Shown piece by piece: positions 591-51,316 of a stretch of DNA of 64,000 nucleotides. The position numbers and the translations under genes were made by a program. The notes below the pieces were generated by a model. The model did no database searches. It was not told the DNA's origin and saw only the letters and a list, made by a program, of their open reading frames with translations. Source of the stretch: an uncultured Verrucomicrobiota bacterium (lineage in GTDB: Bacteria > Verrucomicrobiota > Verrucomicrobiia > Limisphaerales > UBA9464); assembly GCA_903922605.1 (NCBI GenBank), contig CAIXUG010000062.1, positions 1 to 64,000 of the forward strand, written 5' to 3'. Within the stretch, counting starts at the first letter, position 1. Every line of letters starts with the position of its first letter.

Positions 591-862
591 GAATCTGGGG
601 CAGTTTTGGACGACCAGAAGCTCTCCTGCTGGATGAGCGGGCTTCACCTTGAGTGTCGGCTCCCAGCGTTGAAGCGACAGAGCCGCCCTTGGCGAAAGCC
701 ATCCCTTTTTTGATCCGCCGGGTTCCCTCGGCGCGGCTGTGGACCGGGGCTGTTTCCGGACGACTGCCGGTTCACCAGTACCTTGGGGCTGCCGTGCTGC
801 AAAGAGGCGCCACGCCCGTCCGCCCGGCTTTACTTCATCCGGCGCGTCCGTATTTTGGCGGT

Positions 863-1171
863 GTGGAACTCACCGTGGATTCCTTCCAAGCGGAGCTGGC
901 CGACGCCCTCAAGAATTACGACCGTCACGTGGTCTGTCTGGAGAAGGTGCCGGAGGAGTGCGACGCCTCGCTGCGCTCGCTCCTGCAAAAGGCCATCAAC
1001 GCCTATCAGGGGCGCGGGGCGGACATGCGGCACGGCATCGCGCTGGATCGCCACGTGACCATCATCCTGAGCCAGTCGGAAGGGGAACGGCCGCTCTGCG
1101 GCATCTATTTCAACCTGCACTCGCCCTACAACCGTCGGGCTCCGGTCAAGGCGAGCCGCGAAACGGTGTAA
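863..1171 (+). CDS. small hypothetical protein (102 aa)
   Basis: I do not recognise this protein. I start it at the GTG at 863 (first residues MELTVDSFQAEL). The reading frame extends upstream, but the upstream translation is Arg/Pro-rich with no coding character, whereas from 863 on it looks like a compact globular protein. It is soluble, with mixed charge, a helical first half (LADALKNYDRHVVCLEKV) and a basic C-terminus (PYNRRAPVKASRE). No cysteine metal site, signal peptide or membrane segment is seen. It lies between the divergent histidine kinase and the initiator tRNA, with no partner that would suggest a function. Real but uncharacterised is the most likely status. Confidence 0.55.
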   Translation: MELTVDSFQAELADALKNYDRHVVCLEKVPEECDASLRSLLQKAINAYQGRGADMRHGIALDRHVTIILSQSEGERPLCGIYFNLHSPYNRRAPVKASRETV

Positions 1172-35856: not shown

Positions 35857-38800
35857 ATGCCGTCCCCGTTTCACCTCCCCGGACTCCTGATGGCGCTGGC
35901 CGCATTTTCGGCGGATGTGGCGCTGGCCGATCCGTCCGCAGTCACGATCGTGACCAACGCCGCACCGGACGCGCTTACGGCGCAGGCGCGACTCGCCGTC
36001 GCCCCGGGACTGAAGGTGGAGCTGTGGGCCGGCGAACCGCTGGTGCAGAACATCACCAGCTTCTGCTTCGACAGCCTCGGTCGCGCCTATGTTGTGGAGA
36101 CGGGCCGTCGCCGCACCAGCGTCTTTGACATTCGTGGCCTCCAGCCATGGCTCGATAACGACTACGCGCTCCGCACGGTCAATGACCGCGAAGCCTTCCT
36201 GAAACGCGTGCTGACACCCGGCGATCCCGACCACGAAAAGTTCCTGGGTGCGGTGGTGAAGCGCGGTGGCCTGGAGGATTTCAACCACGACGGCGTGGTG
36301 GACGCCCGCGATCTCGAGGTTGAATCCGAGCGCATCCGCCTCGTGTGGGATGCCGACGGGAAAGGCCGCGCCGATCACGCCGTGACTTTTGCGGACGGTT
36401 TCAACTCGCCCGTGAGCGGCGTCGCCGCCGGCGTGCTCGCTCAGGGGACGAATGTTTGGTTTACGTGCATCCCTGACCTGTGGCGGCTGAAGGCAGCAGA
36501 TGGGAGCGCGGAGATGGGAGATGGAAAATCAGCCACAGCCGCCTCGCGTGAGAAGTTGCTCACGGGTTTTGGCGTCCACATTGCTTTTGGCGGGCATGAC
36601 CTGCACGGGCTCATCAAAGGGCCCGATGGGCGCATCTACTTCAGCATCGCAGACCGGGGTTCGTGCGTGACCAACCGCGAGGGCAAAGTGATTGCTCTGC
36701 CGGACTGTGGCGCGGTGTTCCGCTGCGAACCGGACGGCGCGAACTTCGAGATTTTCGCGCAGGGCCTCCGCAATCCCCAGGAGCTGTGCTTCGACGACTA
36801 CGGCAACCTGTGGACCGGCGACAATAACGCCGACGGCGGCGACAAGGCGCGCTGGACGCTGGTGCTGCAGGGCGCGGATTACGGCTGGACCATTGGCTGG
36901 CAATGGCTGCCGAAACTCGGCGCGTGGAATTCCGAACGGCTCTGGCACACGCGCGAAAGCAACACGGCGGCCTACATCGTCCCGCCCGTCGCGCACATCG
37001 GCCATGGCCCGGCGGGCATCGCGTATTATCCCGGCACCGGTATGCCCGCGCGCTTCGATCGGCATTTCTTCATGAGCGATTTCCCGGGCGGCGTGCGGGC
37101 CTTCGCCGTCGAGCCGGATGGAGCGTTCTTCAGGGTCGTGCCGGAACCCGAAGCAGGACGGGCAGCCCGCCCGTCTTCTGACCTTTCTGCCGTCCCTGCG
37201 GAGCGAACGGCCAACAAAGACGAAATGGTGAACGGGCGGGACGCCCGTCCTACTTTGACGGCCTGGCAGGAGGATAATTCCGCAGCGAATCTCACCGGCA
37301 AGGTGCTCTGGGACCTCTCGCCGGTGGATGTGGCGTTCCCGCCCGGTGGCGGCGTGACTGTGGCCGATTGGGTGCAGGGCTGGGACAAGACCGGCAGGGG
37401 CCGGCTCTGGCATGTCTTTGATCCCGCGCTGGCGAACGACCCCCTCATCGCCGAGACCAAACGCCTGCTGGCCGAAGGCATGACCAAGCGCAACGAGAAG
37501 GAACTGCTCGCCCTGCTCGGCCATCGCGACCAACGCGTGCGCCTGGAGGCGCAGTGGGAACTGGCAAGCCGTGGACCCGAAGTCTGGAAAGGACTGCGGC
37601 AAACCGCAGGAACGGCGCCGAGCATCCTGCCGCGGCTGCATGCGTTATGGGCCTTGGAGATGGTGGTGAGGCACACTCCAAACCGTGATTTCGTACCCGA
37701 ATTGACGGAACTGCAGAGCCTGCTGAACGACCGTGAGCCCCTGATCCGTGCTCAGACCGCAAGGGTGCTGGGCCACGCTCATCTGGTAGCGGCACAGAAC
37801 CCTTTGCTCCAATTGTTTGCCGACTCAGACGCCCGCGTTGCCGGTGCGGCGGTCTCTGCTTACCGGGATATTTTTTCTGCCTTCAGCCAGAATCCTGAAG
37901 GCGGGTTGCGCTATCGCACGAGCTGGCAGGAGCGGTTGTTCCAGTGGCTGCCACAGTCGCTGCAGCAGCGAATCCCCCAACCGAACGCCCAAGGCGCCGT
38001 CGTCTGGCCCACGTATCCGTTGGCGACTCTCTTGGACAGTGCGGCCGGGCTGGAACCGACGGTGCGACATAGTGCCATCCAGTTGCTGATCGAGGTCGGA
38101 ATAACCGCCGGGACCGGGAACTCCGCCATGTTTCTGGGGAATTACAAGATGCTCGAACATGGCACCAACACGAACGCCCGCCTGAGTCTGTTGCTCGCCG
38201 AACGGCGGCTGGGTTTGGACGAGATATCGTCATTTCTGGACGACCCTTCACCGGTGCTCGTCTTGGAGGCTGCCCGCGCCATCAACGACGTGCCGATCAC
38301 CAATGCGTTGCCCGCGCTGGCCGGATTGCTGGAACCGGCAGCGTTGGATCACGTGACTTGGGACTCCGGCGTGACGAACTTCACCCGCGACGAATGGCAG
38401 ACCTGGATGCTTCGCCGCGCGGTGAACGCCCATTTCCGTCTCGGCAACGCCACGAATGCGGACGCGCTCGCCCGCTTCGCCGTCCGCGCGGACACGCCGG
38501 AAAGCGTCCGCGTCGAGGCGCTCGACGATCTCGCGGACTGGGCGAAGCCGCCGGGCCGCGACAAGATTGTGGGTTTGTGGCGACCGCTGCCGTGGCGTGA
38601 TCCGGCGCCACCCAGCCAGGTGCTCGCTGCCATCTGGCCGCAACTGGCCGGCGACGGCTCGACCAACGTTGTCCTGGCGTCCCTGCGGGCCGGAGCGGCC
38701 CTGAATATTGCCGGTTTCCCCGCCTTGCTGGCCGCCTTGCAGCAGCATCCCAGCGCCAGCGTGCGTGCCGAAGTCACGCGGCTGGCGGCAGTGGGAAAAA

Positions 38801-39528
38801 CGGCATCCGTGGGCGATCTGCTGGTGACGCTGGCGAACGGAAAGCCGGCGGAGCGACAGGCGGCCTTTTCCGCCCTGGGTGCGTCTGCCGAGCCCGCCGC
38901 CCTCCGGACGCTGGCCGATTGGGTGCAACAGATGACAGCGGGCCAGGTGGCGGCGGAGTTGCAACTGGACATTCTCGACGCGGCCACCAAGGCCGCACAG
39001 CCCTCCGGCAACCCTTCCGGCAGTGCGGCCTCCACGCTGCGTATCGCACTCACCGCCTGGACCAACTCACTTCCGAAAACCGATCTGCTGGCATTGTATC
39101 GCCCGGCCCTGACCGGCGGCGACGCGGCGCGCGGGCGCAAGCTGTTCACCGAGCGGCAGGACCTGGCCTGCTTTCGCTGCCACAAACTCCAAGGTGAGGG
39201 CGGCGAAGTCGGGCCGGAACTGGCCGGCATCGGTCGCACCAAAGGCCGTGAGTATGTGTTGCGCTCGATCCTCTTCCCCAACGCGGAGATCGCCGCCGGC
39301 TTTGAGAACGTGGTGATCACCCTGAAGGACGGCTCCAGCGTCACCGGCGTTCTAAAGTCCGAATCGGACACGGAGCTGGTCGTGCAATCGCCCGAGGATG
39401 GCCGGGTGACCGTGAAAAAGGCCGCGATCGCAACGCGCGAACGCGGCCCTTCGGCCATGATTGAGGGACTCGGGGAACTGATGAACCCGCGCGACCTGCG
39501 CGACATCGTCGAAGCACTCGCCGAGTGA
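35857..39528 (+). CDS. exported membrane-bound dehydrogenase/HEAT/cytochrome c protein, second family member
   Basis: A 1223-residue protein of the same PVC family as 5294-8410. It has a signal peptide (1-24; GLLMALAAFSADVALAD), a dehydrogenase propeller (about 45-520, with LRNPQELCFDDYGNLW and GDNNADGGDKARW), HEAT-like helices (about 540-1080) and a heme c domain with C1105-F-R-C1108-H1109. An EGGEVGPELAGIGRTKG loop and a closing beta region follow. It is longer than its relative. Part of the excess is an in-frame insertion at about residues 433-466, encoded by a REP-like inverted pair (37153-37253). A smaller one near residues 214-223 comes from 7-mers AGATGGG (36498-36525). Both sit in surface-loop positions of the propeller region. 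Likely a periplasmic sugar or alcohol oxidase feeding cytochrome c; substrate unknown. Confidence 0.87.
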   Translation: MPSPFHLPGLLMALAAFSADVALADPSAVTIVTNAAPDALTAQARLAVAPGLKVELWAGEPLVQNITSFCFDSLGRAYVVETGRRRTSVFDIRGLQPWLDNDYALRTVNDREAFLKRVLTPGDPDHEKFLGAVVKRGGLEDFNHDGVVDARDLEVESERIRLVWDADGKGRADHAVTFADGFNSPVSGVAAGVLAQGTNVWFTCIPDLWRLKAADGSAEMGDGKSATAASREKLLTGFGVHIAFGGHDLHGLIKGPDGRIYFSIADRGSCVTNREGKVIALPDCGAVFRCEPDGANFEIFAQGLRNPQELCFDDYGNLWTGDNNADGGDKARWTLVLQGADYGWTIGWQWLPKLGAWNSERLWHTRESNTAAYIVPPVAHIGHGPAGIAYYPGTGMPARFDRHFFMSDFPGGVRAFAVEPDGAFFRVVPEPEAGRAARPSSDLSAVPAERTANKDEMVNGRDARPTLTAWQEDNSAANLTGKVLWDLSPVDVAFPPGGGVTVADWVQGWDKTGRGRLWHVFDPALANDPLIAETKRLLAEGMTKRNEKELLALLGHRDQRVRLEAQWELASRGPEVWKGLRQTAGTAPSILPRLHALWALEMVVRHTPNRDFVPELTELQSLLNDREPLIRAQTARVLGHAHLVAAQNPLLQLFADSDARVAGAAVSAYRDIFSAFSQNPEGGLRYRTSWQERLFQWLPQSLQQRIPQPNAQGAVVWPTYPLATLLDSAAGLEPTVRHSAIQLLIEVGITAGTGNSAMFLGNYKMLEHGTNTNARLSLLLAERRLGLDEISSFLDDPSPVLVLEAARAINDVPITNALPALAGLLEPAALDHVTWDSGVTNFTRDEWQTWMLRRAVNAHFRLGNATNADALARFAVRADTPESVRVEALDDLADWAKPPGRDKIVGLWRPLPWRDPAPPSQVLAAIWPQLAGDGSTNVVLASLRAGAALNIAGFPALLAALQQHPSASVRAEVTRLAAVGKTASVGDLLVTLANGKPAERQAAFSALGASAEPAALRTLADWVQQMTAGQVAAELQLDILDAATKAAQPSGNPSGSAASTLRIALTAWTNSLPKTDLLALYRPALTGGDAARGRKLFTERQDLACFRCHKLQGEGGEVGPELAGIGRTKGREYVLRSILFPNAEIAAGFENVVITLKDGSSVTGVLKSESDTELVVQSPEDGRVTVKKAAIATRERGPSAMIEGLGELMNPRDLRDIVEALAE
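36498..36525 (+). repeat. degenerate heptanucleotide repeat (AGATGGG)n inside a CDS
   Basis: Four consecutive 7-mers: AGATGGG, AGCGCGG, AGATGGG, AGATGGA. They are translated as ADGSAEMGDG in the dehydrogenase, a low-complexity loop. Confidence 0.6.
37153..37253. repeat. REP-like inverted pair read in frame inside a dehydrogenase gene
   Basis: The left arm (AGGACGGGCAGCCCGCCCGT from 37155) and the right arm (37232-37253, ending CGGGACGCCCGTCCTAC) are near reverse complements around about 50 nt. The right arm, read in reverse, starts GTAG and folds as ACGGGCG/CGCCCGT. Its core matches the intergenic pair at 19172-19293. The open reading frame passes through without a stop, adding GRAARPSS on one side and NGRDARPT on the other. 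Confidence 0.85.
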
Positions 39529-39533
39529 GACGC

Positions 39534-39634
39534 CGGTCAGTGGCGACGCAGCTCAAGGTACGTAGAATCGCCGTTCGCGGGCGTCTGCAGGTCGATGACG
39601 TAGCCGTCGCCGGTATACACGCCGATCTGGGTCG
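39534..39634. repeat. 101-bp block identical to 42436-42536
   Basis: The last 33 codons of the first delta-60 gene are identical base for base to the end of the second gene; the next base differs. This points to recent duplication or gene conversion. Confidence 0.9.
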
Positions 39635-42242
39635 GCGTACCGCCGGTCAGCTGCTCTCGCTGATAGATCTCGTAGGTCAGCCCCGGTTGCGTCTCCAGCG
39701 CGACGCGAAACTGGCCGGCACTGACATCCTTCGTCCGCAAAGAAAAGTCGGAGTCGCGGGGGATGCGATGCAGGTGCCGGGACAGTTCCAGGTCGAACGA
39801 CTCGTTAAGCACCGTGTGGAGCAGCACAGAGTCATCGGCCAGAGCAGCCATCGCGGTCGCTTCATAGCTGTAGCCTCCTGCCGAGGGTAACACGCACTTG
39901 AAACTGTAATCCCGTTCGCCGGTGGTTTTCCAACGCCAGAGCTCGACCGTGCTGCTGATGAAGTTGTCCACCAGTGAGCGGTAGATGACCTGACCTCCGG
40001 AAGTGCGAACCATCAAATGATTCGGCCCGTCGAGCAGAAAGAAATCAGCGGTTGATCGTGAATAAGGGTAGCTGTCATCGAAGACGGTCAGGACGTTCCC
40101 ATCCTCATCCAGCCGGAACGCCGGCATGCCGACCAGCAGCTTGCCATCTGACTCCACAAAAATGTGCCGCACTCCAATGGTCCGCGCCTGGAACGCCGGA
40201 TCGGCCGAGCCATCGGCCAGCAGGCGCATCAGGCCCAGGCTGGGCGGATTCGTAAGGATCTGACCGGTACCGTAGGTGCGCTCCCCGGCGATGAGCACCC
40301 GCCCGTGCAGGTCGAGCGCCATCGCGTCCACAAATCGGGGCGCCACCACGGGAGACTGGAACGTCGTATCCAGAGTGAGGTCGGCATTCAGACGGGCAAG
40401 CCGGAAGGCCGGCGCATCGCCCACCTTGGTGAACGGGCCCGCGATCAGCAGCTTGCCGTCCGGCAACGGGAGCGCCGTGGACACCTGGACGATGTCCAAG
40501 CTGGGAAAGGGGCGGACCACCAGGTTGCCCGAGCGATCCAGCTCGGCGAGTCCGTAGGCAGGATTCCCCGCCAGTTCGGTGAAATCACCCGTCACCAACA
40601 GCCCACCACCGGGCAACGGGACCAAGGTTTCCACATGCCCCTGTCCCTTGACCACACCGCCGACGCCGAAACCGGAATCCAAGCTGCCATCCGGCAGCAG
40701 TCGTCCCACCAGGGCAGTCTCCGAGGTGTCATTGTCATAGGGATTTCCGCTCCCGACCAAGATACGGCCATCAGGCAACGGTACCAGGTGGGTGACATAG
40801 ATGAAATTCGTGAGGGCACGACTGAACGCCAGATCTTCGGTGCCGGGCTGCGGACTGCGGGCGGCCAGATTGACGGATGGAAATTCCAGCTTCTGCGAAC
40901 CGAACGCATTGCTGAGTACCAGGCTGAAATCCCCCAGCTCACTGCCGTTGGTGATCGCGAGACGCAGACCACGGTTGGTGGCACCGGTGATGGGTGTCCC
41001 ATCCCGCAGCCATTGCAGCGTTGGCTCCGGCGTGCCATCCACCCGGGCAGTCAGATAGAGCGCCTCGTTCGTTGCCACGTGCCGTGGTGCGGCAGTGATG
41101 TTGGCCTGCAGTGCCACCGTATTGGTTGACTCCGGCGTGTATGCCTGCAGCCGAGCAATGCCAGGACGCGCCACCCCGTTCACCTTGCGAAAATCGCCGG
41201 AAATCCAAAGGCGGCCCTGACTGTCCAGTTCCATGGCACTGACGAGCGGCCCGTCCAACTGAACGGTGAAAGTATCGTCCAAAGTGCCGTCTGCATTCAG
41301 GCGGATCAGTCCCGAGGCCGGCGAAGCACCCCAGCTTGTAAAGTTGCCCCCCACGATGGCCTTGCCATCGGGCTGCATGAGCAATGGTGCCAGGTTGAGC
41401 GGGAAATTGGAGAGGTTTGGCATCCGCCGGGTGACCGTCCCCTGGGCGTCGATCCAGGCGAGCTGATCTTCCAGTGCCACGACTGCGGAATCATCCGGAA
41501 GGGTTGCAACCGAGACCGGTTGGGAGTTCAACCTTCCGCTATCGCTCAGTCTGAGACCCAGGTCAGGACTCGGATTCCAAGTCGGGTCCAGCGAACCGTC
41601 GGCCAGGAGGCGAAGCAGGCCAAGACGGTCCGCCGGAGCCGAGGCATGGAAATTGCCGATGACGATGTAGCGCCCCTGGCGGTCGCCTGCCGCCTGGATG
41701 GAGAGACTGCCCGAGCCCGAGGAAGTGGAAGTATCCACCGCCGGCAGCGGGACTTTGATCCGGAAGCCCGGGTCAATGGAGCCATCACCATCCACCTTGC
41801 GGGCATTTGTCTGATCGAATGCCGTCACTGAACCGTCATCCTGCCCAATCAGGGCGCCCTGAAAAAGCGGCGAAATTCCCAGCGGACCGGATTGGGAATA
41901 GGAGCCGTCGTCATGTTGCAAAAGCAGCCCGGAGTTGCTCAATACGGCCAGACCGCCAGAAGGCAGGGGACCCAAGGTGGACATCCATGTCACTGGTACT
42001 GGGAGTTGCCAGTCAGGATCCAGACTTCCGTCGTTCCGCAGCCGGAGCACCGGAAAGGTCGGGGAAGACAGGTAGGCCTGTCCACCCACCACCGTGAATC
42101 CCGAGATGTAGTTGGTGCCCAGTTCGGGCCGCGGGGAAAATCCGAGGTCCAGCTCACCGTCGGCGACGGACCGTGATGTCAGAACTGATGCAAGCGTGAG
42201 CACCAGCCCGGCCCGCCAGACAAAACCTCTCCTTGTATTCAT
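39537..42242 (-). CDS. exported delta-60 repeat protein with Ig-like domain, paralogue 1
   Basis: A 901-residue secreted protein. It has a signal peptide (RAGLVLTLASVLTSRSVADG), then delta-60 repeats (TIGR02608) of about 50 residues around the motif DGSLDPxF/W, from residue 28. An Ig-like domain interrupts them (about 380-465; TPEPTLQWLRDGTPITGATN), and more delta-60 blades follow to about 800. It ends in a C-terminal beta domain shared by its two neighbours (YEIYQREQLTGGTPTQIG to YLELRRH). Delta-60 repeats form beta-propeller-like folds in large secreted proteins; no enzymatic site is visible, so adhesion or ligand binding is likely. It is first of three tandem paralogues on the minus strand (39537-47963). 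It is convergent with the dehydrogenase, with only 8 bp between stops. Confidence 0.87.
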   Translation of the reverse strand: MNTRRGFVWRAGLVLTLASVLTSRSVADGELDLGFSPRPELGTNYISGFTVVGGQAYLSSPTFPVLRLRNDGSLDPDWQLPVPVTWMSTLGPLPSGGLAVLSNSGLLLQHDDGSYSQSGPLGISPLFQGALIGQDDGSVTAFDQTNARKVDGDGSIDPGFRIKVPLPAVDTSTSSGSGSLSIQAAGDRQGRYIVIGNFHASAPADRLGLLRLLADGSLDPTWNPSPDLGLRLSDSGRLNSQPVSVATLPDDSAVVALEDQLAWIDAQGTVTRRMPNLSNFPLNLAPLLMQPDGKAIVGGNFTSWGASPASGLIRLNADGTLDDTFTVQLDGPLVSAMELDSQGRLWISGDFRKVNGVARPGIARLQAYTPESTNTVALQANITAAPRHVATNEALYLTARVDGTPEPTLQWLRDGTPITGATNRGLRLAITNGSELGDFSLVLSNAFGSQKLEFPSVNLAARSPQPGTEDLAFSRALTNFIYVTHLVPLPDGRILVGSGNPYDNDTSETALVGRLLPDGSLDSGFGVGGVVKGQGHVETLVPLPGGGLLVTGDFTELAGNPAYGLAELDRSGNLVVRPFPSLDIVQVSTALPLPDGKLLIAGPFTKVGDAPAFRLARLNADLTLDTTFQSPVVAPRFVDAMALDLHGRVLIAGERTYGTGQILTNPPSLGLMRLLADGSADPAFQARTIGVRHIFVESDGKLLVGMPAFRLDEDGNVLTVFDDSYPYSRSTADFFLLDGPNHLMVRTSGGQVIYRSLVDNFISSTVELWRWKTTGERDYSFKCVLPSAGGYSYEATAMAALADDSVLLHTVLNESFDLELSRHLHRIPRDSDFSLRTKDVSAGQFRVALETQPGLTYEIYQREQLTGGTPTQIGVYTGDGYVIDLQTPANGDSTYLELRRH

Positions 42243-42290
42243 AGCCTTGGGGAATCTTTGTGCGCCGATAACAAAGCGTGCGCGAGCATG

Positions 42291-42320
42291 TTTTTCAAGT
42301 GTAAATTTACGGCTATAAAC
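42291..42320 (-). promoter_or_regulatory. conserved upstream element of delta-60 gene 1
   Basis: Read on the minus strand: GTTTAT, 4 nt, then GTAAATTTACACTTG and an A-tract. GTAAATTTAC is a perfect palindrome. The element ends 49 nt before the ATG. Equivalent sequences occur at the same distance before the other two paralogues, so it is a candidate promoter or operator. Confidence 0.55.
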
Positions 42321-42360
42321 ATTGCATGGACCGCGCCGGCATCGGCCCCCTACGGCAATA

Positions 42361-42384
42361 ACCCGCCGGTTTTTGCCGGCGGGT
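42361..42384 (-). terminator. terminator of delta-60 gene 2
   Basis: A perfect 9-bp stem ACCCGCCGG/CCGGCGGGT (42361-42369 with 42376-42384) and a 6-nt loop, followed on the minus strand by TTATTG. It separates gene 2 from the promoter of gene 1. Confidence 0.75.
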
Positions 42385-42438
42385 TTGCGGGACGGTCATC
42401 CGAGATTTTTGCGGGTCTGACGCCGCGCCGGCACGCGG

Positions 42439-45138
42439 TCAGTGGCGACGCAGCTCAAGGTACGTAGAATCGCCGTTCGCGGGCGTCTGCAGGTCGATGA
42501 CGTAGCCGTCGCCGGTATACACGCCGATCTGGGTCGCCGTGCCGCCGGTCAACTGGTCGCGCCGGTAGACTTCGTAGGAGAGACCCGGCTGGGTCTCGAG
42601 CGCGACGCGGAACTGGCCACCACTGACATCCTTCACCCGAAGGGACATATCTGAATCGGGCAGAATCCGATGCAGGCGCCGGGCCTGATCGGGAGTCGGC
42701 TCATGGTAGCTCGTCGGACTCACCAAAGCATTTAAGAGGACTGAGCCATCCGCCAGGGCCGTTGCCGCTGTCACATTGATTTGCCCCGGATATCCCACCA
42801 GCGGATCGATGAGCGCGCATTGGAAGTTGAAGTCCTGTTCCCCTGTGGCCTTCCATCGCCAGAGCTCCATCACATTGATGGGCATCTGGTGCTTGAGCGA
42901 CCGATAGATCACCCCACCCTCCGGAGTCCGGACCATCATGTGATTGGCCTCCTCGGATAGGGAGAACACCTCATCGGACGACGCGTAACGATAAACACCC
43001 TCTTCGAAAGCCGTGATCAGATTTCCATCCTCGTCGAGGCGCAGGGGCGGCATGCCGACCAGCAGCTTGCCGTCCGGTTCCACAAAGATGCTCCGGATGC
43101 CATTGGTCCGCGCGTGAAAGGCCGGATCGGGGGAGCCATCGGCCAGGAGGCGGTTCAGGCCCGCCCGCGGAGGATCGGTGAGGGATCCGCTAAAATACAT
43201 GCGTTCCCCGGCGATGAGCACCCGACCGCGGGCATCCAGTGCCAGGGCGTCCACGAACTCCCAATACGTCAACGGATAATGGAAGGCGGGGTCCAAGGTG
43301 AGATCGGCGTTCAGCCGGGCCAGCCGGAACGCGGGCGCACCACCGACCGTGTTGAAGCGTCCGGCAATGATGAGTTTCCCGTCGGGCAGCGGCAGCGCGG
43401 TGGACACATGCGCGATATCGAGGTTTGGCCACGCGCGCGCGACCAGTTTCCCGTCACGATCCAGCTCGGCCAGCCCTTGGGCCGGCTGCCCGCCTAGCTC
43501 GATGAATTCACCGGTCACCAGCATCCCGCCTCCCGGCAGCGGCACGAGCGTTTCCACCCGGCCCCGGCCCCTGACTACGCCCGCATCACCAAAACTGACG
43601 TCCAGCCCACCGTCGGCCAGCAGCCGTCCCACGAGGGCGGTTGTCACGTTGGTGTCCGCACCGCCGACCCCGCTGGCGACCAATATCCGGCCATCGGGCA
43701 GCGGCAACAGCTGGATGATCTTGTCGAAATTGGTCAGGGCGCGGCTGAAGGACGCGTCCTCAGTTCCGGGACGCGGACTGCGCACCGCCAGCGCGGTGGC
43801 CGGAAAATCGAGCTTCTGCGAACCGAAGGCATTGCTGAGCACCAGACTGAAAGCGCCCAGTTCATTGCCTTTCGTGATGCTCAGGCGCAGGCCGCGATTG
43901 GTCGCGCCGTCGAGGGGGATGCCATCCCGCAACCATTGCAACGCCGGCACCGGAATGCCATCCACTTTGGCGGTGAGATACAGCGGCTCGTTGGTCGCCA
44001 CGCGCGCCGGGGCCGCCGTGATCTGCGCCTGGAGTGACACCGCATTGGTCGGCCCCGGCTGATACGCCTGGATTCGGGCGATTCCCGGGCGCTCAATTCC
44101 ATTCACCTGGTGAAAAAACCCGCTGAACCAAAGGCGTCCCTGGGTGTCCAAGTACGTTTGGCTCACGAAGGGGTTGTCCAGTGTCACGGAAAAGGAGGAA
44201 TCCAAAGAACCGTCAACATTCAGGCGGATCAGCCCCGTAACCGGCACGTTTCCCCATTTGAAGAAATCGCCACCCACGATGACTTTGCCATCCGGTTGGA
44301 CGATGGGAGTGGCAAAAAGACGGTTGCCCGCCGGATTGACGAGCCGCCTGGTTACTTTCCCCCCGGCATCGATCCAGACGATTTCCTGGTCCAAGATTAT
44401 CAGCACCGAATCTTCCGGCAGGGCGCTGATTGCCAGGGGCACCAGCAGGCCATTGCCGTTCACATCGGCTTGCAGGTCAGACGTTGGATTCCAGCCAGCA
44501 TCCCAAGTCCCATCCGCCAAAAGGCGGATCATCCCCGAGTGCACCGCCGGAGCGGGCGTCTGGAAGTCACCAATGATGACATAACGTCCCTGACTGTCGG
44601 TCACCCCACCTTTGAACGGAATCCCGTTCGAAGCTTTCTGCAGCGGAACCCGGATCCGGAAGGCCGGATCAACCGTGCCATCCGCCCTGACCCGGCTCAC
44701 ACCGTCCAATGAAATCAAGGTGACCGATCCATCATCCCCGGGCAGGACGCTCCCCAAGGGGGGCACCCAACTCCCTCCCACAATGGGCTTCACATAGGAG
44801 TCGTCATCGTATTGGATGATGCAGCCGAAGTTGAAGGCCATGGCCAGCCCCCCGGAGGGCAGGCCGCTGATCGCGGCTGCGCCTTTCCGGGGATAGGCAA
44901 GCTGCCAGCCGGCATCAAGGCTGCCATCCTCGCGCAGCCGGCTGACCTCCAGACCGGGATTGGACAGGTAAGCCTGCCCGCCAACCACCGCGAAAGTCGT
45001 GGGGGAGTTGCTGCCCACCTCGGGCGGCGGGGCGAATCCCAGGTCCAGCTCACCGTCGGCGAGGGCCACTGCGGTCGAAACCGCGGCGAGGGTGGACGTG
45101 AGCCAGGCGCGCAAAATGGAACTCCTCCTAGTTTTCAT
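42439..45138 (-). CDS. exported delta-60 repeat protein with Ig-like domain, paralogue 2
   Basis: An 899-residue paralogue of the genes on both sides, with the same order. The signal peptide is ILRAWLTSTLAAVSTAVALA; delta-60 repeats follow (DGELDLGF, DGSLDAGW, DGTVDPAFR), then an Ig-like domain (about 380-465; VPALQWLRDGIPLDGATN), further repeats, and the shared C-terminal domain ending YLELRRH. The C-terminal 33 codons are identical in DNA to paralogue 1, whereas most of the rest has diverged. It has its own upstream element and terminator, so the three genes are separate transcription units rather than an operon. Function unknown; probably cell surface or secreted. Confidence 0.87.
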   Translation of the reverse strand: MKTRRSSILRAWLTSTLAAVSTAVALADGELDLGFAPPPEVGSNSPTTFAVVGGQAYLSNPGLEVSRLREDGSLDAGWQLAYPRKGAAAISGLPSGGLAMAFNFGCIIQYDDDSYVKPIVGGSWVPPLGSVLPGDDGSVTLISLDGVSRVRADGTVDPAFRIRVPLQKASNGIPFKGGVTDSQGRYVIIGDFQTPAPAVHSGMIRLLADGTWDAGWNPTSDLQADVNGNGLLVPLAISALPEDSVLIILDQEIVWIDAGGKVTRRLVNPAGNRLFATPIVQPDGKVIVGGDFFKWGNVPVTGLIRLNVDGSLDSSFSVTLDNPFVSQTYLDTQGRLWFSGFFHQVNGIERPGIARIQAYQPGPTNAVSLQAQITAAPARVATNEPLYLTAKVDGIPVPALQWLRDGIPLDGATNRGLRLSITKGNELGAFSLVLSNAFGSQKLDFPATALAVRSPRPGTEDASFSRALTNFDKIIQLLPLPDGRILVASGVGGADTNVTTALVGRLLADGGLDVSFGDAGVVRGRGRVETLVPLPGGGMLVTGEFIELGGQPAQGLAELDRDGKLVARAWPNLDIAHVSTALPLPDGKLIIAGRFNTVGGAPAFRLARLNADLTLDPAFHYPLTYWEFVDALALDARGRVLIAGERMYFSGSLTDPPRAGLNRLLADGSPDPAFHARTNGIRSIFVEPDGKLLVGMPPLRLDEDGNLITAFEEGVYRYASSDEVFSLSEEANHMMVRTPEGGVIYRSLKHQMPINVMELWRWKATGEQDFNFQCALIDPLVGYPGQINVTAATALADGSVLLNALVSPTSYHEPTPDQARRLHRILPDSDMSLRVKDVSGGQFRVALETQPGLSYEVYRRDQLTGGTATQIGVYTGDGYVIDLQTPANGDSTYLELRRH

Positions 45139-45183
45139 ATATCGGGAAACCGTTGTACGGACAGATTAATCTCAACGGCTCTC

Positions 45184-45215
45184 CTTTTGCAAGCGTTAAG
45201 ATTACATTCATAAAC
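45184..45215 (-). promoter_or_regulatory. conserved upstream element of delta-60 gene 2
   Basis: Minus-strand GTTTAT, 4 nt, GTAATCTTAACGCTTGC then AAAA, ending 46 nt before the start codon. It matches the elements upstream of genes 1 and 3, with one extra base in the spacer. Confidence 0.55.
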
Positions 45216-45232
45216 TATCCGGCACCACCGAA

Positions 45233-45261
45233 AGAAAAACCCGCCGGCTGGCCAGCGGGTT
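45233..45261 (-). terminator. terminator of delta-60 gene 3
   Basis: On the minus strand CCCGCTGG and CCGGCGGG pair (45240-45259, one wobble), followed by TTTTTCTTTC. Strong Rho-independent form, 57 bp after the stop of gene 3. Confidence 0.8.
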
Positions 45262-45317
45262 GGAATCATTCGAAACTTTTATGCAGCTCAGACGCCGCAG
45301 GAATTTCCGCCGGCGAC

Positions 45318-47963
45318 TCACTGGCGGCGCAGCTCGAGATAGCCGGCGTTTCCGGTCGCGGGCGTCTGCAGGTCGATGACGTAGCCATCACCGGAATACG
45401 CGCCAATCTGGGTCGGCGTGCCGCCGGTCAACTGGTCACGCCGATAGATTTCGTAGGACAATCCTGGCTGGGTAGCCAGCGAGACATGGAACTGGCCGTC
45501 GCCGATGCCCTTGCTTTGCAGGGCGAGATCGGAATCGCGCGGGATCCGGCGCAGACGGAACGCCTGATCATTGGTCGTGAGCAGGATGGAATCGTCGGCC
45601 AAGACGGCCATGGCTGTCACGGGACTGTCGAAAACGCCATTGGTGGTCAACACGCTCTGGAAAGAAAAATCCCGCTCGCCCGTGGGCTTCCATCGCCAAA
45701 GCTCGGCCGGCCCCTGCCCACTGGTGTCCTCCCAGGATGGATAGACAACGCCTCCGGCAGCCGTCCGGGCCATCAGATGGTTGGCCTCAGTTGCCGAGCC
45801 CACACTGTAGCCAAAAACCGCATACCGATCGACGTCATCTTCGAACAGAGTCAGCACATTCCCATCCTCGTCCAGGCGGGCCGGTGGCATCCCCACCAGC
45901 ATCTGGCCTTCCGGTTCCATGAAGATCGCGCGCAGCCCATTGGTACGGACGTGGAAAGCCGGATCCGGCGAACCGTCGGGCAGCAGGCGTTGGAGCCCTA
46001 CCAGAGGCGGGTTGGTGACTGTTTCATGGGCGTAAACGCGTTCTCCGGCGATCAGCACGCGCCCGTGGGCATCCAAGGCGAGCGCATCCACAAACTGCCA
46101 GTCCAGCAGATGGGCTTGAAATGACGTGTCGAGCGTCAGGTCGGAGTTTAGCCGGGCGAGGCGGTAGACCGATACACCGTTCACCTGGGCAAAGCGTCCG
46201 GCGATCATCAGCTTGCCGTCGGGCAACGGCAGTGCGGTGGACACGTGCGGAATGTCCAGGTTCGGAAACGGACGTACCACCACTTTTCCACTGCGATCCA
46301 GCTCGGCCAGACCATAGGCGACCTGCCCGCCCAAATCGGTAAACTCGCCGGCGACCAGCAGCCCGCCGTCCGGCAACGGGATCAGTGTTTCCACACGCCC
46401 CCGACCAGCAACGACACCCCCCTGGCCAAAGCTGGCATCCAGACTTCCGTCGGCCAGCAACCGCCCCACGAGGGCCGTTTCCGGGCTTTGATCAGGATTG
46501 GGGTTTTCGCTGGCGACCAATATGCGTCCGTCCGCCATTGGCACGAGTTCGTTGACCCTGTTGAAATTGGTCAGGGCACGGCTGAAAGCCATGTCTTCGC
46601 TTCCCGGGTGCGGACTGCGCGCCGCCAGGGTGACCGAGGGAAACTCCAGCTTCTGTGAGCCGGAGTCATTGCTGAGCACGAGGCTGAAAGCACCCAACTC
46701 GCTGCCGTTCGTGATGCTCAGGCGCAGCCCGCGATTGGTGGCGCCTGGGATCGGGGTGCCGTCCCGCAACCATTGCAGCGTTGGCTCCGGCTGTCCGTTC
46801 ACCTGAGCGGTCAGGTAGAGCACCTCGTTCGTCGCCACGTGCGCCTGGGTCGCCGTGACCTGTGCGGTGAGGGCCGTCGTATTGCTGGGCGGCGTGTAGG
46901 CCTGGATGCGGGCGATGCCCGGCCGGTCCACTCCGTTCACCTTGCTGAACCCGCCGACAAACCACAGCCGCCCTCGGGCATCCAACTTCATGGTTTCCAG
47001 GAAGGGGCGGTCCACCCCGGCCGAAAAGCTGGGGTCCACGGTACCATCCGCCTTCAGCCGGACCAGCCCCGGGGCCGACTCCCCGTTCCAGGCGTCAAAA
47101 TTGCCCGCCACGATGATTTTGCCGTCCGGCTGCACGATGGGGGGCAGAAAATAGGATTTGTTGTTGGCCAGGTTCGGGACCCGCCTGGTGACTGTGCCAC
47201 CGGCATCGATCCACACCAAATCCCTGAACAGGACGAGCAGCACCGAATCCTCCGGCAGCGCCGTGATCGCAAACGGCGCCGAAAGGCCGCTGACGTCCGC
47301 ATACGGCTGCGGGTTCCAAGTGGTGTCCAGCGAACCGTCGGCCAGGAGCCGCATGCCTCCGAAGCGCATGTCGGGGGCCGGTGTCTGAAAGTCGCCGATG
47401 ACGACGTAACGTCCCTGCCCGTCGCGGATGCCGCCTCTGAGGCTCGGAAAGTTGCTGCCCTGCAAGGAAACCTTGACCCGGAAGGCCGGATCTATGCTGC
47501 CGTCGGGCAACACCTTTTGGGCATTGTACCCCGAAGAAATGACGGTCACCGAACCGTCATCCTGCGGCAGTACGCTGCCCACCGTGGGGTCCAAGATCCC
47601 GCCCACCCGGGGGCTGAAGTGGGAACCGTCATCATATTGGATGAGGAAACCGGATTCATATGCCACCGCCAAGCCGCCCGCAGGCAGGCCGACGATGACA
47701 TTCGCCCCCCAGTTGGGAGAAGCCGGCTGCCAGCCTTCGTCCAGACTGCCATCCTCGCGCAGCCGGATGACGGGCCGCTGGGAGGCGCCCACGTAGGCCT
47801 GGCCACCGACCACCGCCAGCCCGCTGATGAAATTGCTGCCCAGCTCGGGCGGCGGGTTGAAACCGGGGTCCAGCTCGCCGTCGGCGAGGGACCGTGATGT
47901 CAGAAATGCTGCGAGCGTGAGCAGCAGCCCGGCCCGCCAGACAGAACCTCTCCTTGTTTTCAT
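45318..47963 (-). CDS. exported delta-60 repeat protein with Ig-like domain, paralogue 3
   Basis: An 881-residue member of the tandem set. The start MKTRRGSVWRAGLLLTLAAF at 47963 aligns with MNTRRGFVWRAGLVLTLASV of paralogue 1; the in-frame upstream extension has no counterpart and is left out. It has delta-60 repeats (DGELDPGF, DGSLDEGW, DGTVDPSF, DGSLDASF, DGSPDPAF), an Ig-like domain at about 360-445 and the shared C-terminal domain ending YLELRRQ. Its 5' region is closer to paralogue 1 than to paralogue 2, while paralogues 1 and 2 share the 3' end, which suggests a mosaic history. No catalytic motif is visible. Confidence 0.87.
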   Translation of the reverse strand: MKTRRGSVWRAGLLLTLAAFLTSRSLADGELDPGFNPPPELGSNFISGLAVVGGQAYVGASQRPVIRLREDGSLDEGWQPASPNWGANVIVGLPAGGLAVAYESGFLIQYDDGSHFSPRVGGILDPTVGSVLPQDDGSVTVISSGYNAQKVLPDGSIDPAFRVKVSLQGSNFPSLRGGIRDGQGRYVVIGDFQTPAPDMRFGGMRLLADGSLDTTWNPQPYADVSGLSAPFAITALPEDSVLLVLFRDLVWIDAGGTVTRRVPNLANNKSYFLPPIVQPDGKIIVAGNFDAWNGESAPGLVRLKADGTVDPSFSAGVDRPFLETMKLDARGRLWFVGGFSKVNGVDRPGIARIQAYTPPSNTTALTAQVTATQAHVATNEVLYLTAQVNGQPEPTLQWLRDGTPIPGATNRGLRLSITNGSELGAFSLVLSNDSGSQKLEFPSVTLAARSPHPGSEDMAFSRALTNFNRVNELVPMADGRILVASENPNPDQSPETALVGRLLADGSLDASFGQGGVVAGRGRVETLIPLPDGGLLVAGEFTDLGGQVAYGLAELDRSGKVVVRPFPNLDIPHVSTALPLPDGKLMIAGRFAQVNGVSVYRLARLNSDLTLDTSFQAHLLDWQFVDALALDAHGRVLIAGERVYAHETVTNPPLVGLQRLLPDGSPDPAFHVRTNGLRAIFMEPEGQMLVGMPPARLDEDGNVLTLFEDDVDRYAVFGYSVGSATEANHLMARTAAGGVVYPSWEDTSGQGPAELWRWKPTGERDFSFQSVLTTNGVFDSPVTAMAVLADDSILLTTNDQAFRLRRIPRDSDLALQSKGIGDGQFHVSLATQPGLSYEIYRRDQLTGGTPTQIGAYSGDGYVIDLQTPATGNAGYLELRRQ

Positions 47964-48011
47964 AGCCTTAGGGAATTGTTGTGCGCGGGCAACAGACCAC
48001 CCGCACGTATG

Positions 48012-48043
48012 TTTTGCAAGCGTAGATTTACACTTATGAACGT
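48012..48043 (-). promoter_or_regulatory. conserved upstream element of delta-60 gene 3
   Basis: Minus-strand GTTCAT, 4 nt, GTAAATCTACGCTTGC then AAAA, ending 49 nt before the ATG. Third occurrence of the shared element. Confidence 0.55.
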
Positions 48044-48074
48044 ACTGATGACGACGCCGGTACCACCTCACTTC

Positions 48075-48104
48075 AATAAAAATCCCGCCGGTTTAGCCGG
48101 CGGG
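48075..48104 (-). terminator. terminator of the Gfo/Idh gene
   Basis: A perfect 8-bp stem CCCGCCGG/CCGGCGGG (48084-48091 with 48097-48104), 5-nt loop, and ATTTTTATTG on the minus strand after it. Confidence 0.85.
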
Positions 48105-48135
48105 TTAGCGGGAGACTGATGAAAGACTTCCCGGC

Positions 48136-49248
48136 TCAGACGCCCCGGAAATTCGGCAGGCAGATCTTCTCGCCGCCGCGCATCGAGGACTCGTGGGCGA
48201 GGATGCCCACCATTGTCCAGTTCACGGACTGGTAGAGGTCGGGGAAGCTCGGCCGGTTCTCCGCCACGGCGGAGATGAACTCGTGCGCAAGGTGCGGGTG
48301 GCTGCCGCCATGGCCGCTGCCCTGGATGAACGACAGGTGCGCATTCTCGGTCATGTCATACACGCCCTTGGTCGTGAAGGGCCGGATCGGCTCCGGCAGC
48401 AGGTACGCGTAGTCGGGGATCTTCACCTTCTCGACCGATTCTCCACCGAGATGCAGCACCGGGTCATCATGCTCGGTGAGCTGCCATTCGAACGAGGTCT
48501 CGGACCCGTAGCAGTCAAAGCTCTCGCGGTATTGGCGCGCGGCATCGAACAGATAGCGCGTCACCTCGCCGGCGACATCCTGGTTTCGGACCTTGAAATG
48601 TGCCGTCTCGAACGAGAAGGGCGAACCGTACTTCGCGATGCGCGCCTCAGAGATACGGCCCGAGCCGAGGCAGGACACGAATTCCGCCTCGCCGTTCACG
48701 ATGCCGAGGCAGGGCGAGACGCAGTGCGTGGCATAGTGCATCGGCGGCAGGCCTTCCCAGTAGCCGGGCCAGCCCGCCATGTTCTGGAGATGGCTGCCGC
48801 GCACGAACTGGATGCGGCCGAGCTTGCCGGTATCCCGCAGTTCGCGGACGTAAAGGTATTCGCGGCTCCACACCACGGTCTCCATCATCATGTAGCGTTT
48901 GCCGCTCTCCTTGGAGGCCTTCACGATCTCGCGGGCCTCCTCGATGGTGGTGCAGGCCGGCACGGTGCAGGCCACGTGCTTGCCGGCGCGCAGCGCGGCA
49001 ATGGACTGCGATGCGTGCAGGTGGATCGGCGAATTGATGTGTACCGCGTCAACATGGGGATCCCGCAGCAGATCCTCGAAGCTCTGGTAGCGCTTCTCCA
49101 CGCCGAACGCCTTGCCGACCTGCTCCAGCTTCTCCTTCGAGCGCTGGCAGATGGCGTACATGTTCGCCTGGGGGTGGCGCTGGTAGATGGGGATGAATTC
49201 GGACCCGAATCCGAGACCGACGATGGCAACGTTGATTTTACGGCTCAT
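48136..49248 (-). CDS. Gfo/Idh/MocA family oxidoreductase with altered EKP motif
   Basis: A 370-residue NAD(P)-type oxidoreductase. The Rossmann GLGFGS is at 11-16 after a short lead, and the C-terminal substrate domain has HYATH and GSGHGGSHPHLAHEF. In most family members the cofactor/catalytic motif is E-K-P. Here the aligned positions are Thr95-Val96-Pro97 (HVACTVPACTT), so the catalytic lysine is missing. It has no signal peptide, unlike the relative at 61395. The start at 49248 (MSRKINVAIVGLG) gives the normal spacing to the Rossmann motif. It may be a divergent oxidoreductase or a binding/isomerising protein that keeps NAD(P). It stands alone on the minus strand with its own terminator. 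Confidence 0.85.
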   Translation of the reverse strand: MSRKINVAIVGLGFGSEFIPIYQRHPQANMYAICQRSKEKLEQVGKAFGVEKRYQSFEDLLRDPHVDAVHINSPIHLHASQSIAALRAGKHVACTVPACTTIEEAREIVKASKESGKRYMMMETVVWSREYLYVRELRDTGKLGRIQFVRGSHLQNMAGWPGYWEGLPPMHYATHCVSPCLGIVNGEAEFVSCLGSGRISEARIAKYGSPFSFETAHFKVRNQDVAGEVTRYLFDAARQYRESFDCYGSETSFEWQLTEHDDPVLHLGGESVEKVKIPDYAYLLPEPIRPFTTKGVYDMTENAHLSFIQGSGHGGSHPHLAHEFISAVAENRPSFPDLYQSVNWTMVGILAHESSMRGGEKICLPNFRGV

Positions 49249-49420
49249 GGAAGAAATGGCTCCGCCCGGCAAGCATGGCACCCGGAAGGGCACGGACTGG
49301 CTAAACGGTGCCGCCTAGCTAACTCGCCCCCCAAAATCAGCGTCAACGCGATAATGCCCGAAATCGGTCTTTTCGCTGAGCATCTGCGCTCTACGGCTGA
49401 GTTTTTGCGCGGGGTTGGCC

Positions 49421-51316
49421 CTATTCCCCAAGGTATTTTGCCAGGAAGGCATCCATTGCATTGTAGAACTCCAACTTCGCCTCTTTGCTCTGAAAGCCAT
49501 GCCCTTCCTTGGTCTTCGTCTTGTACTCGTAGGTTTTGCCGGCGCGGCTCAGGGCTGCCGCCATGGCGTCACCCTGTTCGATTTCCACCCGGGTATCATA
49601 AATGCCGTAATACATCAGTACCGGCGCCTGGATCTTGTCCGCAAGGGCGACGGCCGAGGGAGCCTTGAGAACCTCCGCATCGACGCTGCCGCCCAGCAGC
49701 CGGCGCACCTGCGCTTTGGTGTTCCCATCCGCGTTGCGGTAGGCCTTCTGCATCAGCTTCGGATCGGTGACACCAACGTAGTTCACGCCGCAGCGGTAGA
49801 GCTCCGGCGTCAGGCAGAGGCCGATCATCGTAGCATAGCCGCCGTAGCTGGCGCCATAAATGCCCACCCGTCTGGGGTCGGCGTAACCTTGGGCGATGGC
49901 CCATTTCACGCCGTCCGTCAGATCGTCCTGCATCTTGCCGCCCCACTCGCCGAAACCGGCGGCCATGAGTTTCCCCCCGAAGCCTTCTGACCCGCGAAAA
50001 TTGACTTGCAGCACGGCGAAGCCGCGGTTGCAGAGGAATTGGACCTCCTCATCGAAACCCCAGTAATCACGCGCCTGCGGGCCACCATGCGGATGGAGGA
50101 TCAGAGGCAGGTTGCGCGGTTCCCGTCCGGCTGGCAGCGAGAGATAGCCGTGGATGAGCAGGCCATCACGGGCCTTGAACTCGATGGGACGCATTTCGGC
50201 CATCTGCTCCGGCTTGATCCAGGGCAGGACGCGGCTGAAGGCGTCCAACCGCCCCTTGTCCAGGTCAAAAACGTAATACATGCCCGGATCACGGTCGCCA
50301 CTGGCCAGCACCAGCGCCTTGTGCCAGTCGTGGTCGAAGCTGTGAAACCCGACCGAGCCTTTGCCTAGCGCCTTGCACGCTCCTTCATAAAGCGAGGCGA
50401 ACTCCGGATCGAGCGGTTCAACCCGATAGCCGTCCGCGAAATATCCCACCGCCATCGGCCGCCGGTGCCGGCGCGAAAGGTAGACGCGGTTTACATCCAC
50501 ACCCGGGGGGGCGAACAGTTCACGGACAAATTCCTTCTTCTCCACGTCGAACGCCCACAGTGCGTCGGTGTCACGGCCCCGGTTGGAGGCGACATAAAGC
50601 GTGTGGCCGTCGTAGTCGAACTCCATCGGCTTGAAGGTTTCGCCCTGCATCTTTTCTTTCCACAGCTCGGTGAGCGGGGCGCCTTTTTCATGGCGGTACA
50701 GCCACGTCGCGCCATCCGGGTCGGACCGGCGTCCCAGCCTCACGACACCCTCCTGATCCGTCAGCCACTCGTACACATGATCCATGGCGCTCTGCACCAG
50801 TTGGCTGCTGCCGCTCTGAGTGTTGAGTGTGTGGACCGATGGGCCGCGCATGTCCGAAGGGCTCGTCTTCCACCGCTGGTCGGCGATGAGGATGTGTTTC
50901 GGATCGTTATCAAGCAGGTCAAGAAGCTGAAAGGAGTCACCCTTCGGCTCCACCAAGATGCGCAGCCCGGAACCGTCGGCGGCAGCGGTAAACAGTTCTC
51001 CAGTCCAGTAGCCATCCTTTTGGAGCAGCAGGATGAGCTGGTCATTGCCCTTCCAGGAGAACGCAGCCAGCTGATAGGTGCGATCAAATGCCATCCTTAC
51101 CAGCTTGCCGGTTTTCAGATCCTGAACCGCGAGCTTTTTCTCCCAGCCGTCGGCGGACTCAAAGGCGATCTTGGTGCCGTCCGGCGAAAGCTCGGCCTGA
51201 CGACAGGCGGGCGGACGAAAAAACTCCTCCACCGGAATCTTAGCCGGTGGTGCCGCCACCAGAGGAAGGGTTGTGGCCAGGAAAAGACTGAGCAGATGAG
51301 AGGTCAGACGGGACAT
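49421..51316 (-). CDS. exported prolyl oligopeptidase family (S9) peptidase
   Basis: A 631-residue secreted serine peptidase. It has a signal peptide (LLSLFLATTLPLVAAPPA), an N-terminal beta-propeller (about 40-370; LSPDGTKIAF, TLYVASNRG) and a C-terminal alpha/beta hydrolase. Nucleophile Ser490 is in YGASYGGYA, the acid is likely Asp in YYGIYDTRVE, and the His is in KEGHGFQSKE. The HPHGGPQ oxyanion segment is present. The size and order match acylaminoacyl-/dipeptidyl-peptidase-like S9 enzymes that cleave short peptides in the periplasm. It is a single gene upstream of the Gfo/Idh gene on the same strand, with 172 bp between. Confidence 0.92.
   Translation of the reverse strand: MSRLTSHLLSLFLATTLPLVAAPPAKIPVEEFFRPPACRQAELSPDGTKIAFESADGWEKKLAVQDLKTGKLVRMAFDRTYQLAAFSWKGNDQLILLLQKDGYWTGELFTAAADGSGLRILVEPKGDSFQLLDLLDNDPKHILIADQRWKTSPSDMRGPSVHTLNTQSGSSQLVQSAMDHVYEWLTDQEGVVRLGRRSDPDGATWLYRHEKGAPLTELWKEKMQGETFKPMEFDYDGHTLYVASNRGRDTDALWAFDVEKKEFVRELFAPPGVDVNRVYLSRRHRRPMAVGYFADGYRVEPLDPEFASLYEGACKALGKGSVGFHSFDHDWHKALVLASGDRDPGMYYVFDLDKGRLDAFSRVLPWIKPEQMAEMRPIEFKARDGLLIHGYLSLPAGREPRNLPLILHPHGGPQARDYWGFDEEVQFLCNRGFAVLQVNFRGSEGFGGKLMAAGFGEWGGKMQDDLTDGVKWAIAQGYADPRRVGIYGASYGGYATMIGLCLTPELYRCGVNYVGVTDPKLMQKAYRNADGNTKAQVRRLLGGSVDAEVLKAPSAVALADKIQAPVLMYYGIYDTRVEIEQGDAMAAALSRAGKTYEYKTKTKEGHGFQSKEAKLEFYNAMDAFLAKYLGE

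Follow-up and report, generated by a model that had tools for sequence, protein, structure and literature searches.

Three adjacent genes for probably exported, repeat-rich proteins in an uncultured Verrucomicrobiota bacterium form a tandem array which, with a probability of about 80%, arose by in-situ duplication, diverged under purifying selection and was then reshaped by ordinary homologous recombination between the repeats. In this course of events a genus-specific branch of delta-60 propeller proteins would have been duplicated in place, the repeated unit consisting of the end of an oxidoreductase-like gene, a hairpin, an upstream element and the gene itself, as still legible in the spacers. 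In the diverged copies, a short non-reciprocal exchange rendered genes 1 and 2 identical over their terminal 101 bp, probably from gene 2 to gene 1 and after the split from the congener that shares the locus. In that congener, crossing-over between repeats would have left one gene, with the upstream region of gene 3 and the coding region of gene 1. Each gene would be transcribed from its own upstream element. The locus exemplifies a known, ordinary process and not a diversity-making machine. The genes and their flanks within the window (the whole stretch of DNA analysed, 64,000 nucleotides) are as follows:

35857 to 39528, plus strand: PVC-type heme-binding CxxCH protein (TIGR02604, TIGR02603), convergent with gene 1; flank also present in the congener
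39537 to 42242, minus strand: gene 1, 901 amino acids; leader, delta-60 repeats, Ig-like segment, delta-60 repeats, C-terminal domain
41127 to 42161, minus strand: predicted N-terminal beta-propeller of gene 1 (345 residues, mean pLDDT 84.9, pTM 0.85)
42439 to 45138, minus strand: gene 2, 899 amino acids; paralogue with 61% amino acid identity to gene 1
45318 to 47963, minus strand: gene 3, 881 amino acids counted from the ATG (917 if counted, as by the ORF caller, from an in-frame GTG further upstream); paralogue with 62% amino acid identity to gene 1
48136 to 49293, minus strand: oxidoreductase-like gene (weak NCBIfam matches, all below cut-off); flank also present in the congener

The architecture that an earlier, sequence-only reading had proposed for the three proteins was borne out: all 3 ORFs are complete; they start with a hydrophobic leader, continue with delta-60/DUF5122 repeats that flank an Ig-like segment, and finish with a C-terminal domain. 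Each protein matches PF17164 (DUF5122; 144.8 to 176.3 bits, curated cut-off 27) and TIGR02608 (delta-60 repeat; 104.8 to 141.5 bits, curated cut-off 76.5), and the three agree with this family in score, gene 1 also in its predicted N-terminal propeller, with no family-defining feature that differs. Reg_prop, another propeller model, exceeds its cut-off in genes 1 and 2. Of the Pfam Ig models tried (I-set, Ig_3, Ig_2), matches to all three proteins stay below the cut-offs (I-set 21.7, 15.8 and 21.5 bits versus 23.7; Ig_3 at most 22 versus 30); by these scores the segment is similar to Ig domains only, the gathering cut-off being missed. A Foldseek search with the N-terminal model of gene 1 returned designed as well as natural propellers among the best matches, and the model superposes on 9m8k_B (VIA-align Z 25.9, rmsd 2.9, 277 aligned), a receptor-complex chain that we take to be G-beta. 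The full-length model of gene 1 was poor (pLDDT 53.4) and was left out of the fold search. A second propeller beyond the Ig-like segment is suggested by the repeats, not by a good model; the strongest DUF5122 stretches are residues 594-628 (gene 1) and 585-619 (gene 2). All three N-termini show RR, a hydrophobic stretch and small residues ahead of DGELD. We note that the hydrophobic stretch is in each case preceded by T-R-R (starts at 42242, 45138 and 47963), which to our mind resembles the twin-arginine export motif. Taken together, predicted propeller, Ig-like segment and leader suggest that the three proteins most likely have a binding or scaffold role outside the cytoplasm.

The view of a duplicating locus is supported by the spacers, which repeat, in degraded form, the sequence ahead of gene 3 and point to tandem duplication in situ:

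47964 to 48135, minus strand: region ahead of gene 3, which aligns with the sequence upstream of the congener's copy; hairpin 48084-48104, upstream element 48012-48041
45139 to 45317, minus strand: spacer between gene 3 and gene 2; degraded 3' end of the neighbouring gene (45286-45314), hairpin 45238-45261, upstream element
42243 to 42438, minus strand: spacer between gene 2 and gene 1; the upstream unit again in degraded form, with hairpin 42362-42383 and upstream element 42291-42320

Both spacers align to the region ahead of gene 3, hairpin and element included. The spacer between genes 3 and 2 contains a copy, ~26 bases long, of the end of the oxidoreductase-like gene (p<=0.0005 by base shuffling), while the spacer between genes 2 and 1 matches the congener's version of this gene end (p=0.0015) and, without reaching significance, the window's own (p=0.065). 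It is this content from which the extent of the duplicated unit is read. A hairpin precedes each gene, as had been claimed; a terminator scan shows no overall excess (7 sites versus a mean of 6.8 in shuffled sequence). Likewise, each gene has its own upstream element, although the copy of gene 2 aligns with a shift of 1 base and is therefore missed by the pattern. In the 5.3-Mb genome the 30-base element pattern is matched with up to 3 mismatches at genes 1 and 3 only, and the hairpin pattern has two sites, both at the locus. A genome-wide regulon for the element was rejected, since both of its sites lie at the locus. A scan for sigma-70 promoters gave 0 sites (mean 1.7 in shuffles). The element (42291-42320, 48012-48041) has a near-palindromic GTAAAT-type core next to a TTGMAA box and is possibly a regulator site.

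The congener, an uncultured Verrucomicrobia bacterium (contig CAIVQH010000032.1), is the nearest of seven congeners by the oxidoreductase-like gene (98% versus 91-96%). It carries a single copy of the family, denoted s4, between the same two flanking genes, and its genome yields one match at E<=1e-30. The paralogue pairs share 61-63% amino acid identity, 66-68% DNA identity (78-85% in codon window 840-900) and a 4-fold-site identity of 0.46-0.50; s4 and gene 1 share 89% identity and a 4-fold-site identity of 0.75. A whole-gene quartet likelihood comparison is won by the grouping of gene 1 and s4 by 135 log units; taken over its full length, s4 is the orthologue of gene 1. The branching order of genes 2 and 3 is weakly supported (bootstrap 57). 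The dS amounts to 1.03-1.19 between paralogues and 0.41 between gene 1 and s4, and of six further orthologues in the neighbourhood five lie at 0.23-0.44; judged by divergence, the duplication predates the species split. Orthology is nevertheless a mosaic, as dS between gene 1 and s4 is near or above 0.9 in windows at codons 90, 360 and 900, matching paralogue levels. Further along the flank, a peptidase-like gene (49421-51316) has 73% amino acid identity and a dS of 1.39 to its syntenic counterpart in the congener, a probable allele replacement.

The region upstream of s4 is of gene-3 type up to GCGCACAA and of gene-1 type thereafter; the switch lies 15 bases before the start codon, and a few single sites on either side break the pattern. 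The congener copy hence joins the upstream region of gene 3 to the coding region of gene 1, the outcome expected of a deletion through crossing-over between repeats. The same structure would also result if extra copies had been inserted in the lineage of the window. It would likewise be seen with an ancestral single copy and later import of the others, a less likely course.

Paralogues that have diverged more than the two species themselves may also suggest a foreign source: the array, or genes 2 and 3, could have been acquired through homologous recombination with a divergent relative that has this locus too, in which case the single copy of the congener would be ancestral. Similar replacement seems to occur nearby, as the peptidase-like gene exceeds five other flanking genes in dS (1.39 versus 0.23-0.44). 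In addition, the family is found in only two of the eight genomes of the genus, source genome included, at E<=1e-30 as well as E<=1e-60, and the absence of a copy from the other six at both thresholds (one of the six is only 54% complete) speaks for import. We consider such an import unlikely. The spacers hold the locus's own neighbour end and hairpin, so the array was built behind that gene, either at this place or in a very closely related organism; it is this content, together with the divergence of the paralogues, that makes an ancestral single copy with later import the less likely course. Moreover, the best match outside the genus among the genomes of the order reaches 552 bits, versus 1646 for s4 (2 candidates scored per genome in the order, up to 18 in the family).

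A wider survey places the duplication most likely within this genus. The paralogues and s4 are mutually closer (60-62% and 89%, respectively) than to seven other members compared (at most 44%), and a tree splits the window's genes and s4 from the outgroup members with support 100. The family is detected in 5 of 50 genomes at family level (E<=1e-60, up to 18 candidates scored per genome) and in 5 of 320 at order level (profile of the three proteins, E<=1e-60, 2 candidates scored per genome and hence not used for copy numbers), own genome included in both counts. A further close copy is absent from the source genome, where the next best match has an E of 1.5e-10. A contig search queried with one protein returned no relative; queried with the alignment, it returned the congener contig and three weak matches (Spirochaetales, Methylococcaceae and Geodermatophilus by name). 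The genome of another genus (70% complete) harbors four homologues, each on a contig of its own; contig ends cut two of these homologues, a third stops 367 bases away from such an end, and an array may have broken the assembly here as well.

Recombination between the duplicates is seen at the 3' ends of genes 1 and 2:

39534 to 39634, minus strand: conversion tract at the end of gene 1, covering the final coding bases, the stop codon and 3 further bases; all 101 bp match gene 2 exactly
42436 to 42536, minus strand: partner tract in gene 2, the probable donor

The two tracts are indeed 100% identical, as first noticed from the letters, and the end of gene 3 is only 82% identical. The identity spans 20 consecutive polymorphic sites, compared with a maximum of 11 in 2000 permutations, and 4-fold sites of genes 1 and 2 agree at 18/18 positions inside the tract versus 138/320 outside (Fisher p=5e-7, for a region picked once the tract was known); these two results rule out chance. 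Genes 1 and 2 show no difference in the last 95 columns and 18 in the 95 before, whereas gene 1 and s4 show 13 and 4, respectively. For columns 2640-2733 the quartet likelihood favours the pair of genes 1 and 2 by 15.4 log units and the orthologue tree is rejected (AU p=0.004); all 10 informative sites unite genes 1 and 2 against gene 3 and s4, compared with 244 orthologue-type and 54 other sites in the rest of the gene (p=8e-8). Within the tract, s4 resembles gene 3. The proposed gene conversion is thus real as a tract between paralogues over the last ~95 bp, in which gene 1 groups with gene 2 instead of s4. The sequence-only reading would have been contradicted by uniform divergence and by the same identity in distant homologues; divergence is uneven along the genes, and the 101-bp identity is missing from the congener's orthologue as well as from distant homologues (25-33% amino acid identity in the C-terminal domain). 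The terminal identity is the product of local gene conversion.

The exchange most simply ran from gene 2 to gene 1 after the split from the congener. Direction and timing are a matter of parsimony, because one congener alone carries the locus; another possibility is an older exchange between genes 1 and 2 combined with one of gene-3 type in the congener. The assemblies consist of many contigs, and an exact repeat of 101 bp is a spot where short reads may be misjoined, though a misjoin does not generate identity.

Concerted evolution of bacterial paralogues by gene conversion is described in PMC6053082. The present locus shares with it the exchange of sequence between adjacent duplicates, presumably by homologous recombination, but here the exchange is limited to ~100 bp and the remainder has diverged. 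Concerted evolution of whole genes is not observed, with the 4-fold identity among paralogues staying below that to the orthologue (0.46-0.50 versus 0.75); paralogues are more alike than orthologues only for genes 1 and 2 and only in the last 95 bp. The claim that the locus is maintained by gene conversion could accordingly not be upheld, given paralogue dS above 1 and low 4-fold identity across the genes. Conversion occurs mainly above 80% identity according to PMC3924818; the genes considered here have 66-68% DNA identity, with 78-85% in codon window 840-900. Among the papers listed in a literature search on gene conversion, propeller paralogues and C-terminal sorting, none dealt with the locus or its C-terminal domain.

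Other mosaic signals come from regions selected after inspection of the data (5' end, columns 1080-1440, columns 2160-2610). Genes 1 and 3 are more similar at their 5' ends, as had been stated: 24/30 4-fold sites agree in the first 60 codons versus 141/303 elsewhere (p=4.6e-4 before correction for regions and pairs examined). The longest-run permutation test for this pair places the top run at columns 638-659 (10 sites, p=0.005), not at the 5' end. Around the Ig-like segment (columns 1080-1440), agreement between gene 1 and s4 drops to 32/63 4-fold sites versus 338/432 elsewhere. Both signals are possibly older exchanges. Columns 2160-2610 show the reverse: here the 4-fold sites of gene 1 and s4 agree almost throughout (71/72 versus 299/423 elsewhere), possibly due to a recent between-species exchange.

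Antigenic-variation cassette systems such as vls and pilE combine mosaic paralogues with silent, promoterless donors, an exchange that is concentrated in variable regions under diversifying selection, and a high rate of variation within a population. The sequence-only reading had suggested that conversion generates binding diversity, and a system of this kind, yielding variable binding surfaces, would share with vls and pilE the mosaic paralogues at one locus. It could also account for the signal in the Ig-like segment, where columns 1080-1440 hold 17 orthologue-type and 18 other informative sites versus 227 and 46 elsewhere (p=1.6e-5); the quartet test for this segment, however, still prefers the orthologue tree (AU 0.94). 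Furthermore, all three copies are full ORFs, each with its own upstream element, no silent copy was found in the genome, as is evident from the absence of any further close copy (next best E 1.5e-10), and there is no sign of exchange targeted to variable regions. The one sure tract sits in the C-terminal domain and makes these domains more alike. Purifying selection on the copies is clearly indicated by a dN/dS of 0.16-0.28 over the whole gene in six pairs; in 11 windows between gene 1 and s4 the ratio ranges from 0.06 to 0.59 and never exceeds 1, with the top value where dS is just 0.017. A cassette system was therefore not favoured, on account of the missing silent copies and the low dN/dS, and we regard a diversity function as very improbable. 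Nucleotide-level constraint at the 3' end without any conversion is scarcely credible as the source of the 101-bp identity: other pairs are also somewhat more similar there (4-fold sites 10/14 for gene 3 with either gene 1 or gene 2, p=0.11; 12/15 for gene 2 and s4, p=0.016), but the end of gene 3 is just 82% identical and the orthologue s4 differs from gene 1 at 13/95 terminal versus 4/95 preceding sites.

The C-terminal domain that carries the tract had been called unusual, a description that does not hold within the source genome, as related domains end many other ORFs. An extended profile of the domain gives 49 matches in the genome at E<=0.01, including the three paralogues (39537-39764 in gene 1), and for the best 30 of the 49 the distance from the end of the match to a stop codon is in all 30 cases no more than 16 residues; 11 of the 30 had themselves served as profile seeds. 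The profile, the second of two, was seeded with 8 ends from the same genome found by the first profile (two of them with first-round E-values of 0.014 and 0.026) and did not include two of the ten sequences from the first alignment. The source genome thus has the domain at many C-termini, and not at this locus alone. Across the phylum, 35 of 115 sampled genomes, own included, match it at E<=1e-4 and 80 do not. Pfam offers no credible family for any of ten domain members or of four other ends tried. Hits to AAA_lid_6 (0.018) and WS_DGAT_cat (0.1), each in one member of ten, and to Laminin_G_3 (0.049, below cut-off), in one of the four ends, were taken as chance.

The locus provides a clean case in which old bacterial duplicates have undergone partial gene conversion; the orthologue of the congener serves as an internal control, and the duplication unit can still be read in the spacers. 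It also draws attention to a C-terminal domain that lacks a credible Pfam match and ends 30 of 30 ORFs (best 30 of 49 matches). A tentative and rather doubtful proposal is that this domain serves many Verrucomicrobiota proteins as an unnamed export, anchoring or assembly domain. Conversion between neighbours would then preserve its fit to a common partner, and the remainder of each protein could diverge freely. If true, the array would amount to an experiment of nature: recombination would conserve the tag but not touch the cargo.
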